Shown in pieces: positions 13,901 to 20,012 of a DNA stretch of 64,000 bases. The DNA is from Natronococcus occultus SP4. GTDB lineage: Archaea > Halobacteriota > Halobacteria > Halobacteriales > Natrialbaceae. The position numbers and the translations under genes are program-made. The notes beneath the pieces were generated by a model. The model did no database searches. It was not told where the DNA came from and saw only the letters and a list, made by a program, of their open reading frames with translations. Each line of letters opens with the position of its first letter. Position 1 is the stretch's first letter. The DNA is taken from NCBI RefSeq assembly GCF_000328685.1, contig NC_019974.1, positions 3,897,001-3,961,000 on the forward strand. The letters run 5' to 3'.

Positions 13901-14086
13901 TGTCGAACCGTTCGGCGTCGGCGGGGAACTGTCTTTTCATCCCGGCGACGCTGCCGTCCGCGTCGCTGTCGGGAGCCACGACTACCGGAAGCGAGAACCG
14001 AGAGAACGACGACTTCCCGTCATAGCTTCACCTTGTGACCAGAACCACTTAAAGAACGATCCACGGATCCCGAACCCTGACGGCGA

Positions 14087-15920
14087 TCAGATCGAGAGAT
14101 CGACCCGGCGCAGCAGTTGCGCATTGATCGCGACGATCACCGTGCTGGCGGACATAAGCACCGCGCCGACCGCCGGCGAGAGCAGGACGCCGATCGGCGC
14201 CAGCACGCCGGCCGCAAGCGGCAACGCGAACACGTTGTACCCTGCGGCCCAGGCGATGTTCTCCTGCATCTTCCGGTAGCTCTTCCGGCTCAGGCACACG
14301 AGCCGGGCGACGTCGCGGGGGTCGTTCTCGACGAGGACGACGTCGGCCGACTCGACGGCAACGTCGGTCCCCGAGCCGATGGCGACGCCGACGTCGGCGC
14401 GGGTGAGCGCGGGCGCGTCGTTGACGCCGTTCGCAAGAGCGTAGCTCTTGCGAGCCAACCATCGCGACGAGCGTGCCCTCCTCCTGGAGTTCGACGATCT
14501 TCTCGTCTTTGTCCTCGGGCAGGACTTCGGCGAAGACGGTGTCGATGCCCAGTTCGTCGGCGACGCTGTGAGCGACCTCGGCGTCGTCGCCCGTCAGCAT
14601 CGCCACCTCGACGCCCATCCCCTGCAGCGCGTCGATCGCCTCGAAACTCTCCTCGCGGATCACGTCGGCCAGCGCGAGCGCGCCGACGACCGAGTCGTCA
14701 CACAGTACGTAGACGACTCCGTACCCCCGTTCGCCGGCCTCCTGGGCGAACTCCTCGAAGGCGGTCCCGGGCTCGATCCCGAGGTGACCCAACAGATTCG
14801 GGCCGCCGACGGAGACGGTGCGGCCGTTCCGGTCGCCCGGTTCGCTCCTGTCCGCGGTTCCGCCGGGACCGCCCGCTGTTGCGGCCGGAACCGCGTCCCG
14901 TTCGACCGTCGCGCGAACGCCCCGTCCCTCGAGGGCCTCGAAACCGCGAACGTCGGGTGCGGAAAGCTCACGCGCCTCGGCTTCCTCGCGAACGGCCTGT
15001 GCGATCACGTGCTCCGAATCGCCCTCGGCCGCGGCCGCAAGCGTCAACACGTCGTCCTCGCTCCAGCCCTCGATCGTCTCGAGGACGACGTCGGCCGGCT
15101 CCTTTTTCACCGGCGTCGATTCCCCCGTGACCATCGCCTCGTTGACGTTCGACGTCCCGTCCTCGACGACGCCGTCGGCGGGAACGTTCGCGCCCGGTCG
15201 GACGAGTACGAGATCGTCCTCCTCGAGGACGTCGGTCGGAACCGTCCGAGTTTCGCCGTCCTCGGTGATCCGCTCGGCGGTGTCGGGCATCAGCTCGGCC
15301 AGTTCGTCGAGCGCGCCCGAGGCTCGTCTGACCGAGCGCATCTCGATCCAGTGACCCAGCAGGAAGATGATGATCAGCGTCACGAGCTCCCAGAAGAACG
15401 GGTCGCCGATCCCGAAGGCGACCGCCGCGACGCTGTAGCCGAACGCGACCGTGATCGCCAGCGAGATCAGCAGCATCATCCCGGGTTCGCGGTTGCGCGC
15501 CTCGACCGCGCCCATCCGCAGGAACGGAACGCCGCCGTAGGCGAAGACGACCACGCCGAGGACGGGGCCGACGAACTTGCTGCCCGGGATGGTCACGGCG
15601 GTGTAGCCGAGCCACTCCTGGAGCATCGGGCTGTAGTACAACACCGGTAGGGAGAGCACGAGACAGACGAAAAACCGCTTCCGGAACATCTCCTCGTGGC
15701 CCGAGTGGTCGACGTGAGCACCGTGCTCGTGATCGTCTTCGTGAGCGGCGTCCTCGCGGTCGTCGCGACGTTCGACCGGCTTCTGGTCGGGTTCGGGTGC
15801 GTCCCGGTAGCAGTCACACACCCGACAACACGAGCAGTAGCGGTCCGTGGGCCTCTCGCGGCGAGCGGACTCGCCCTCCGGGCGGGCGCCGTCGCCGTGA
15901 TCGTGGGTCGGCTCGGTCAT
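14087..15920 (-). pseudogene. copB: Decayed CopB-type copper P-type ATPase
   Basis: The N-terminal frame (15920 down to about 14450) has a His-rich, Cys-containing head, four membrane segments and TGES, then jumps from VKKEP directly to a nucleotide-binding-domain sequence (ETIEGWSEDD). About 130 residues normally found between these points, including the CPx membrane motif and the phosphorylated DKTGT loop, are missing. A second lesion adds a 23-base hairpin within GDGVNDAP (14434-14456), shifting frame; the rest ([20 protein letters not shown] to the stop at 14087) continues in another frame. Either lesion should abolish transport. The His-rich head suggests the CPH-type CopB group. Confidence 0.85.
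14434..14456. repeat. 23-base perfect hairpin inserted in the ATPase reading frame
   Basis: On the coding (minus) strand TCGCAAGAGC, loop TAC, then GCTCTTGCGA: two 10-base arms that pair perfectly. It sits where the codons of GDG in the GDGVNDAP hinge motif should be. Compared with the family sequence the net gain is 22 bases, a +1 shift. It may be a footprint or a very small palindromic element. Confidence 0.7.
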
Positions 15921-16139: not shown

Positions 16140-16715
16140 GTGGGCCGAACGACACGCGACACCGCCATCGTCGCGCTGGTTGCCGGGATCCTCCTGCTCG
16201 GTGTCGGGGCCGCCTGGCAGGCGTATCGACAAGCTCAGGCGCACGGCGAGATGATGGGTCACGCTGCGGTTCACGGGACAAATCCGGGCTGGTATCTGCT
16301 CGGCTCGGTTCTCGTTGCGGGGGTCGTCGCTGGCGCGTACTGGATCGTTCGCGAGGAGCGAGGACGGAACCCCAAGCGGCAAACCACACCTCGAGAGGAC
16401 GGCCCGTCGATCGCGGCTGACGACGAGCGAGACGAATCCTCGACCGACCGAACGGACGAGCCAGCGGCTCGGGCGTCTCCTCACATCCTGACCGTTCTGC
16501 CCGAGGACGAACGCCGCGTCCTCGAGCCAGTCGTCGACTCTCCCGGAATTACGCAGATCGCACTCCGGGATCGGTCGGAGTTCTCCAAGAGCAAGGTCAG
16601 CCAGACCGTCACCGACCTCGAGAAACGCGGCCTGCTCTACCGCGAGCGACAGGGGCGGACGTACCGCGTCTACCCGAGCGACGAACTGATCGACGACCTG
16701 GACGGCGAACGGTGA
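16140..16715 (+). CDS. Membrane-anchored winged-helix regulator with an external Met/His loop
   Basis: 191 residues from GTG. Helix 1 spans about 9-26 and helix 2 about 51-69; charge distribution puts both ends inside. The short outside loop holds His35, Met38, Met39, His41 and His45, a good soft-metal site. An acidic linker leads to a C-terminal winged helix (about 110-185: ILTVLPEDERRVLEPVV, SKSKVSQTVTDLEKRGL) of the DUF7343/MarR-like type. It lies between the decayed CopB gene and the His-rich/CopA genes, so I infer a one-component copper sensor. No promoter target is proven. Confidence 0.8.
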   Translation: MGRTTRDTAIVALVAGILLLGVGAAWQAYRQAQAHGEMMGHAAVHGTNPGWYLLGSVLVAGVVAGAYWIVREERGRNPKRQTTPREDGPSIAADDERDESSTDRTDEPAARASPHILTVLPEDERRVLEPVVDSPGITQIALRDRSEFSKSKVSQTVTDLEKRGLLYRERQGRTYRVYPSDELIDDLDGER

Positions 16716-16917
16716 CCGCTCTCCGGCGACACGGGTCGCTTCGGTGCGACGATTGGATCGGCGGGATCGAGACCGCCACACAGAGGCCGAACGAACGGTC
16801 TCTCCGATAAGAAACGATTAGATCGGCGCACGAACGATCTCGAACGATCTCCGACGCGGGTTCACACCCAGATCTACAACCGTTACCCGCCCGTTCGATC
16901 GACTGAGGAGAAGACTA

Positions 16918-17217
16918 ATGACGATACCCCTACTCCGACTCCTGGCAGCCACGGTCGTGATCGTCGCGTTGCTCGGCGGCGTCGCGGTCGTAAGCGCGGA
17001 CACGGGTCCGGTCGACGTCCTCGACCGGATGCACAGCGACGGCGAACATCATGCCGAACATGACCACGGCGAACATCACGCCGAACACGATCACGCCGAA
17101 CACGATCACGGCGAACATGACCACGCTGAACATCACGGCGAACACGATCACGGCGAACATCACGCCGAACACCCCGAGGACAACGGAACGCACCATCAGG
17201 TGGGCGGTCACTGCTAA
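16918..17217 (+). CDS. Exported His-rich metal-binding peptide
   Basis: 99 residues. A signal peptide (about 1-27, LLRLLAATVVIVALLGGVAVVSA) is followed by a tail with 23 His in about 62 residues, arranged as degenerate repeats of GEHHAEHDH type, ending GGHC. The repeats are in the DNA too, so the tail can vary in copy number. It precedes copA by 176 bases. A role as an extracytoplasmic copper or zinc binder that feeds or buffers metal is inferred from composition and position. Confidence 0.75.
   Translation: MTIPLLRLLAATVVIVALLGGVAVVSADTGPVDVLDRMHSDGEHHAEHDHGEHHAEHDHAEHDHGEHDHAEHHGEHDHGEHHAEHPEDNGTHHQVGGHC
17041..17175 (+). repeat. Degenerate tandem repeats coding the His-rich tail
   Basis: Units of the form GAACATCACGCC and GAACACGATCACGCC/G repeat through this stretch, built from 12- and 15-base steps so frame is kept. 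Confidence 0.7.
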
Positions 17218-17286
17218 CCCCGGTTGCGACGGGGTTCCGTCGTCACGGCCGAAGCGATCAATCCGATCATCGCCAGCCGGTTTCAG

Positions 17287-17354
17287 TTAGAAGGGTTCTT
17301 CGAATTCTAAATTTATATTCGAGTTTCTAAATCCGAATTATTTTGGCTATATGA
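17287..17354 (+). promoter_or_regulatory. AT-rich control region of copA with direct repeats
   Basis: TTCTAAAT occurs twice (17305-17312 and 17325-17332), exactly 20 bases apart, so both copies lie on one face of the helix. An upstream TTAGAA (17287-17292) pairs with TTCTAA (17305-17310). TATA-like cores sit at TTTATAT (17312-17318) and CTATATGA (about 17346-17353). It is the most AT-rich spot of the copper block and lies 40-110 bases before ATG 17394. Confidence 0.5.
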
Positions 17355-17393: not shown

Positions 17394-20012
17394 ATGAGTA
17401 CCAGACGAGCGCACCTCGAGATCACCGGGATGTCCTGTGCGACGTGTTCGGGCAGCGTCGAGGACGCGGTCGGTGAGCTCGAGGGGGTCGCGTCGGTGAG
17501 CGCGAACTACGCCACCGACGAGGGGACCGTCGAGTACGACCCCGCAGAGACGTCGCTGGCCGCGATCTACGACGCGATCGAGGCGGCGGGGTACGAGGCG
17601 GCCTCGGCGACGGAGACGATCACCGTGATGGGGATGTCGTGTTCGACCTGCTCGGGGACCGTCGAGGACGCGGTCACCGAGCTGCCGGGCGTGGTCCGTG
17701 CGGACGTGAATTTCGCCTCGGACGAGGCCCGCGTCGAGTACAACCCCGACGACGTCTCGATCGGCGAGATCGGCGACGCAATCGAGGAGTCGGGGTACGA
17801 CCCCGTCCGCGACGAGCTCGAGGAGACCCAGGGCGCGAGCCAGCGCGAACGCGCCGTCGAGCGGGAGCTGCGGCGCCAGCGCCGACTCGTGATCGGCGGC
17901 GGGCTGCTGACGCTGCCGTTCGTCCCGATCATGCTGGCGATGTTCGGCCTCGTCGAACTGCCGGAGGCGGTGTTCGGGATCGGATTGGGTTGGGTCGAGT
18001 TCGTCTTCGCGACCGCCCTGATGGCGACGCTCGGCAAGGAGTTCCTCGTCGGCGCCTACCGCGCGTTCGCGAACGACCGCCGGGCGAACATGGACACGCT
18101 CGTGGCCGTCGGCACCTCGGCGGGCTACGTCTACAGTACGGCCGTTCTGCTCGGGATCGTTACGGGCGGGTTCTACTTCGAGGCCGTCGCCTTTATCCTG
18201 TGGTTCATCACGCTCGGGAACTGGCTCGAGGTTCGCTCGAAGGCCCGCGCGGGCAGCGCGCTGCGGGAACTGCTCGAGATGGAGGCCGACGAGGCGACCA
18301 TCGTTGTGGACGGCGAAGAGAAGCAGGTCCCCCTCGAGGACGTCGAGCCGGGCGACGTGATGAAGGTTCGACCGGGCGAGAAGATCCCCACCGACGGCGT
18401 CGTCCACGAGGGCCAGAGCGCGGTCGACGAGTCGATGCTCACCGGGGAGTCCGTCCCCGTCGAGAAAGGGGAGGGTGACGAAGTCGTCGGCTCGACGATC
18501 AACGAGAACGGCGTCCTGCTGGTCGAGGCGACGAAGGTCGGTTCCGAGACGGCGATCCAGCAGATCGTCGAGCGGGTCAAGGAAGCCCAGTCCCGCCAGC
18601 CCGAGATCCAGCGGCTCGTCGATCGGGTCAGCGCCTACTTCGTCCCCGCGGTGATCGTCAACGCCGTCGTCTGGGCGGTGCTGTGGTTCCTCTTCCCCGA
18701 GACGCTGTACGGCCTCTCGGCGGCGCTCGGCTCGTGGATCCCGCTGCTCGAGCCCGTCGGAGGCGGGCCCGTCGTCGGCGGCGTCCCGGTCTTCGAGTTC
18801 TCCGTGGTCGTGCTGGCCTCGGCGCTGCTGATCGCCTGTCCCTGCGCGCTGGGACTGGCGACGCCCGCGGCGACGATGGTCGGCTCGACGCTCTCCGCGA
18901 AAAACGGCGTCCTGTTCAAGGGCGGCGACGTCCTCGAGCAGGTCCGGGGGATCGACACGATCGTCTTCGACAAGACGGGGACGCTGACCCACGGCGAGAT
19001 GACCCTGACCGACGTCGAGCTCGTCGGCGAGCGGGCCGCGACCGACGGAGGCAACGATCCCGCGCCCGACGGCGGCCTGATCATCGAACGCGAGGAGTCG
19101 CCCGAGTCACTGCTGCTGGGCGCCGCCGCGACCGCCGAATCCGGCTCCGAACACCCCATCGCGCGGGCGATCGTCGACGGCGCCGCGGACCGCGGCGTCG
19201 AGGTCGGCGAAGTCACCGAGTTCGAGAACGTCCCCGGCCACGGGATCCGCGCCGAGACCGATCGCGGCAGCGTCCTGATCGGGCGCCGGAAGCTCCTCGA
19301 AGAGGCCGGGATCGACACCGGACCCGCCGAGGAAACCCTGACGCGACTCGAGCGGGAGGGGAAGACCGCGATGCCGGTGGCCGTCGACGGTCGGCTGGTC
19401 GGCGTCCTCGCGGTCGCCGACGAGGTTCGCGCGAGCGCGAAGCGGACCGTCGCGGCACTACACGAGCGGGGAACCGAGGTCGTGATGCTCACCGGAGACA
19501 ACGAGCGCACCGCGAGGGCGGTCGCCGAGCAGGTCGGGATCAACCCCGAGAACGTCCGCGCGGAGGTGCTGCCCGAGGACAAGGCCGACCACGTCGAGGA
19601 CCTCCAGACGGGGGGTGCGAAGGTGATGATGGTCGGCGACGGCGTCAACGACGCGCCCGCGCTGACGACCGCCCAGGTCGGCGTCGCCATCGGGTCGGGA
19701 ACCGACGTCGCCATCGAGAGCGCCGACGTCACCCTGATGCGCGACGACCCCGCCGACGTGTTGAAGGCGGTTCGGATCTCAGAAGCGACGATCTCGAAGG
19801 TGCGCCAGAACCTGTTCTGGGCGTTCGTCTACAACGCGACGCTGATCCCGGTCGCCTCGCTGGGGCTGCTCAACCCCGCACTCGCGGGGCTAGCGATGGC
19901 AGCCTCGAGCGTCAGCGTCATGAGCAACAGTCTCGCGTTCGCGAAGTACGATCCCCACGAGGACTACCGGCTCGCAGTCACGAAACCGCTGTCGTGGCTT
20001 CGCGGGCACTGA
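17394..20012 (+). CDS. copA: Copper-exporting P1B-type ATPase with two heavy-metal domains
   Basis: 872 residues, complete. Two HMA domains carry GMSCATCSG (Cys15/Cys18) and GMSCSTCSG (about Cys83/Cys86). The transmembrane CPC motif is at about 482-484 ([13 protein letters not shown]), the phosphorylated Asp at about 526 ([10 protein letters not shown]), SEHP in the nucleotide domain and [10 protein letters not shown] at about 749. This is the Cu(I)/Ag(I) exporter class, acting in the cytoplasmic membrane. It is the only intact ATPase of the block, next to a His-rich exported protein and a decayed CopB. Confidence 0.96.

Follow-up and report, generated by a model that had tools for sequence, protein, structure and literature searches.

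The 191-residue protein encoded at 16140..16715 on the forward strand of the window, the 64,000-nucleotide stretch of DNA analysed here, is likely to be a membrane-anchored one-component sensor of an outside Cu(I)-type metal that controls the gene of a small secreted protein, as judged from sequence comparison and structure prediction. Such a regulator would probably enable a direct cellular response to copper detected on the outside. We assign it a copper role because of the residues in its outer loop and because of its gene neighbours, and we infer from the same kind of data the identity of the metal, metal binding, DNA binding, the direction of control and dimerisation.

Hydropathy, charge distribution, AlphaFold2 and Pfam agree with the architecture given in the initial annotation, namely two helices and a short external loop joined to a cytoplasmic winged helix. 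The gene has a GTG start and encodes no cysteine, and homologues align to the same start position, with GTG or ATG. Two hydrophobic segments (approximately residues 7-30 and 48-72) correspond to a first transmembrane helix, predicted with its N-terminus inside and with its core at 16164..16220 on the forward strand (residues 9-27, within an AlphaFold2 helix spanning 3-36), and to a second at 16284..16352 (+; residues 49-71, from hydropathy and AlphaFold2). AlphaFold2 models the two helices at residues 3-36 and 49-75, with a mean pLDDT of ~80-86 over most of both, and a loop at 37-48. Both ends of the protein are predicted to lie inside because Lys and Arg are distributed as two in the N-terminal eight residues, one in the loop and six in the 20 residues after the second helix. 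An acidic, poorly conserved cytoplasmic linker (16353..16484, +; residues 72-115 by alignment; pLDDT <50 for residues 93-114) leads to the winged helix (16485..16688, +; residues 116-183), which matches DUF7343/MarR_2, is modelled at low confidence and is the most conserved part of the protein.

To evaluate the outer loop (16242..16286, +; residues 35-49 by alignment), we used a genome scan that returned 80 loci, each taken with flanks of up to 10 kb; together with the window these gave 58 unique proteins. All 58 have Met39 and His45, and 54 have Met38; Gly46 and Pro49 are likewise invariant. The five loop residues named in the initial annotation (His35, Met38, Met39, His41 and His45) are all present in the window protein, but conservation holds only for Met38, Met39 and His45; His35 and His41 each occur in 9/58, confined to the clade of the window protein. 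Most homologues carry extra Met in place of His35 and His41, usually giving four to five Met and one His, and the loop sequence in most relatives is MGSMMGTSMGAVHGTNPLWY. Across the 58 proteins the loop is 20.5% Met plus His against 0.9% in the rest of the regulator. A few divergent members have no equivalent of His45 and keep the Met residues. As the regulator has no cysteine, the usual Cys-based cytoplasmic copper site is impossible, and any copper sensing must therefore use Met and His.

The gene order of the initial annotation, copB remnant, regulator, His-rich open reading frame and copA, is correct. CopA is a P1B-type ATPase (17394..20012, +) with a CPC motif and two HMA domains. The copB remnant (14049..15920, -), a divergent P1B ATPase, has lost 441 bp in frame and carries a 22-nt insertion, the latter forming an inverted repeat near 14437-14458, and copB is unbroken in close relatives (loci L031, L032 and L034). 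A P1B-type ATPase lies within 10 kb of the regulator in 28 of the 51 non-redundant loci against ~3.7% expected for a random 20-kb stretch, given seven P1B ATPases above cut-off in the genome; clustering of neighbouring open reading frames places P1B ATPases in 56 regulator loci. The islands also hold genes for CopZ-type HMA, DUF411, multicopper oxidase, plastocyanin-type and Lrp-TRASH proteins. On plasmid pNG600, for example, the order is P-type ATPase, HMA protein, HTH, amidohydrolase, permease, regulator and hypothetical secreted protein, followed by SHOCT, DUF302, SHOCT, thioredoxin, plastocyanin-type, ABC transporter, AsnC regulator, YHS and DUF411. Full-length homologues keep the Met/His loop and lie mostly in copper loci, rather than lacking the loop and lying beside unrelated genes, which supports the copper role put forward in the initial annotation and does not refute it.

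These islands repeatedly contain small proteins that combine a Met-rich transmembrane hairpin with a SHOCT tail, as well as halocyanin-like proteins that have a hairpin of this type at their end (clusters c3 and c7; L077 and similar loci), and the Met-rich hairpin may be a metal-binding module shared across island proteins. Comparison of the regulator hairpin with the SHOCT hairpins using hhalign gave 94% over 46 columns, but the aligned segments are low-complexity membrane sequence, so a common origin is suggested at most.

The most constant partner of the regulator is not copA, which follows next in the window, but a small secreted Met/His-rich protein (16918..17217, +), likely the target gene, whose mature form is 34% Met plus His and has GGHC at its C-terminal end. 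It belongs to cluster c2 in most genera and to the His-rich cluster c24 in relatives of the window. The regulator is present in 102 of the 105 genomes that have the c2 protein, and the element described below is missing in all three of the others. Four divergent regulators with no recognised P1B ATPase nearby were checked, and each has a small secreted Met/His-rich open reading frame next door, three of them differing in sequence from c2. One genome without the regulator (L158) has only a remnant of the secreted gene, joined in frame to a SHOCT tail.

The promoter of the secreted-protein gene is strongly conserved between species, with RAACGNTCTCGAACGNTCTC accompanied by a half-site ~39 bp upstream and, on the downstream side, a TTCACACCC box. 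In the window the alignment places the half-site GAACGGTCTC at 16793..16802 (+), the candidate operator, a tandem GAACGATCTC-GAACGATCTC, at 16832..16851 (+), 86 bp upstream of the secreted-protein start codon (ATG), and the conserved box GTTCACACCC at 16860..16869 (+). The element at 16832-16851 is the only exact match in the 4.31-Mb genome. In 44 of the 51 non-redundant loci the element and a secreted Met/His-rich open reading frame are a fixed distance apart, nearly always ~86 bp. By leave-one-out scoring there is, as a rule, a single element per locus, located ahead of the secreted gene, and it stays with that gene even at 1.7-7.8 kb from the regulator. A TATA-like stretch, weak in the window, directly precedes the element in many species, and a Shine-Dalgarno-like GAGG follows well downstream.

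The likely DNA target of the regulator is the promoter of the secreted gene, since the element is found there and no second match above background is found nearby. The initial annotation had pointed to the copA control region, a target we rejected as the surroundings of the window gene, copA promoter included, hold no second match above background. The AT-rich copA promoter does contain an inverted repeat (TTAGAA...TTCTAA, 17286-17345), possibly a site for another regulator. Autoregulation through the same element was also rejected, since the promoter of the regulator gene itself shows another conserved pattern. Across 391 genomes, in counts that ignore shared descent, 118 have both regulator and element, 20 have the regulator alone, the element being absent or diverged, seven have the element alone and 246 have neither, for totals of 138 with the regulator and 125 with the element. 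A co-moving island alone would give such co-inheritance of regulator, target and element, which is therefore not proof of binding. Two genomes (L156 and L157), which share one element, have it in decayed form ahead of a DUF302 gene and have neither regulator nor secreted gene, a pattern that resembles loss of both.

The family occurs in 138 of the 391 Halobacteria genomes sampled and in 49 of 86 genera, and is frequently plasmid-borne; plasmid records label the protein 'MarR family transcriptional regulator'. A near-identical copper island lies beside an integrase gene on Haloarcula marismortui pNG600 and Halobacterium hubeiense pSTJ003 (L154 and L155), and its presence on plasmids of different genera, next to an integrase, suggests recent transfer. 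The pSTJ003 copy has an ISH28 element immediately upstream of the regulator gene, and translation from the annotated start of that gene would omit the first 46 residues, including the first transmembrane helix. Beyond Halobacteria, a family of small genomes that resemble Archaeoglobi, with dsrA above cut-off in five of the ten tested, encodes proteins of 160-190 residues that share this architecture and carry loops of the HHMMM type. Some of these homologues are near P1B ATPases and several are not beside copper genes. Their relationship to the haloarchaeal regulators is drawn from the winged helix and the architecture, not from the hairpin, for which a hairpin-only profile comparison between the two groups was not significant.

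In the mechanism that we propose, the two helices would hold the regulator in the membrane with both ends inside, and the outer loop (Met38, Met39 and His45 with the extra Met or His) would bind Cu(I) or Ag(I) at the outer face. Metal binding, most simply through bridging of two copies in a dimer, would alter how the cytoplasmic winged helices pair or are placed on the tandem/inverted element. The resulting change in occupancy would allow the secreted Met/His-rich protein to be made when metal arrives and to buffer it outside. Because the element appears to lie over the core promoter, we tentatively favour a repressor that is released by metal, and an activator is possible. Whether this amounts to an archaeal class of one-component sensors, in which a Met/His hairpin reads copper at the outer face and directly switches a secreted copper-binding protein with neither kinase nor soluble regulator, in haloarchaea and Archaeoglobi-like lineages, we regard as an even call.

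The element might instead be bound by another island regulator, of the Lrp-TRASH CopR type or ArsR-like, with the membrane protein acting elsewhere or only modulating. Genes of both types do occur in some of the same islands, and co-inheritance by itself does not identify the element's binder. We nevertheless consider this unlikely, as an Lrp-TRASH gene lies within 10 kb in only six of the 51 non-redundant loci, whereas the element tracks the membrane regulator and is found in none of the three cases in which a c2 gene occurs without it. A role of the hairpin solely in membrane anchoring or in buffering copper locally, with no metal-responsive control of transcription by the protein, would fit the presence in the same islands of SHOCT Met-rich hairpins that have no DNA-binding domain and align weakly with that of the regulator. 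This appears very improbable for a protein in which the winged helix is the part under strongest conservation and whose gene travels with a promoter element at fixed spacing.

The sensor could also be real but serve mainly another soft metal or stress, such as Ag, Hg or the redox state of Met, in place of copper. Met/His sites also accept Ag(I) and Met residues are oxidisable, and both properties count towards a signal other than copper. So does the silver transcriptome of Haloferax alexandrinus, in which copA is induced by silver (PMC10694973). The neighbours, however, are mostly of copper type (CPC and CPH P1B ATPases, CopZ-type HMA, multicopper oxidase and plastocyanin), and Met oxidation leaves the invariant His45 unexplained, so we hold a principal signal other than copper to be quite unlikely.

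Archaeal copper control has so far been described through cytoplasmic regulators such as CopR. If the proposed copper-sensing role is true, a membrane regulator with an outer Met/His loop would give archaea a direct route for reading outside metal. The analysis names together a regulator, its candidate target gene and a DNA element, testable in genetically tractable haloarchaea, and offers a probable function for a gene whose only annotation is 'MarR family' and for a secreted protein so far called no more than hypothetical.

Among known copper regulators, CopR of Halobacterium salinarum (VNG1179C) has experimental support and is described as a cytoplasmic, DNA-bound protein with Lrp and TRASH domains (PMC3551603, PMC5605881), which for this case bears out the earlier remark that known archaeal copper regulators are soluble. 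A haloarchaeal role in the copper response, and the occurrence of Lrp-TRASH genes in some of the same islands, make CopR comparable to the present regulator; it differs in being cytoplasmic, in its fold, in having its metal site in the TRASH domain and in having no membrane part. Lrp/AsnC and TRASH domains gave no Pfam match in the regulator, whereas a separate island protein matches both. Our literature search, which had most subscription papers outside its reach, found no membrane-bound archaeal copper regulator. The CopY/TcrY repressors share a winged helix and copper loci with the regulator but are soluble and Cys-based, whereas the regulator is without Cys, and their model scores 13 bits on it against a cut-off of 121.95; the ArsR/SmtB-type HTH_metalloreg model is likewise below cut-off (18.5 vs 55 bits). 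CusS-type sensor kinases sense periplasmic copper or silver between two transmembrane helices and are two-component kinases. The regulator would resemble them in sensing outside between two helices and differ in uniting sensor and DNA-binding domain in one chain.

By domain, the regulator matches DUF7343 (PF24034; 35.1 bits against a curated cut-off of 27.6) and MarR_2 (33.7 against 27), with the MarR model just below cut-off (24.3 vs 24.6), and the nearest solved structure is a marginal match to the MarR-type protein 2eth (E 0.0057). It shares the winged helix of DUF7343/MarR_2 proteins, and differs in that the domain is short and is attached through an acidic linker to a membrane hairpin. 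Some 68 residues come after the linker, and in a check for the flanking helices of the MarR dimer interface AlphaFold2 predicts, at low confidence, no long C-terminal helix. The other strong DUF7343 matches in this genome sit in open frames that are mostly longer, and they score higher for the family than the regulator. A transmembrane transcription regulator (TTR) is defined by a predicted transmembrane region and a predicted DNA-binding domain in one chain (PMC10269533), and Pfam, hydropathy and AlphaFold2 together find both in the regulator. Membrane-bound regulators are common in archaea according to the TTR survey, ArnR of Sulfolobus being an archaeal example, and a term search of its main text found no mention of copper or metal (PMC10269533). 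The regulator follows the one-chain plan of TTRs and differs from them by its two-helix hairpin, its Met/His loop and its copper loci; we therefore file it as a TTR whose domain is of DUF7343/MarR type and whose sensor hairpin is of a new kind.
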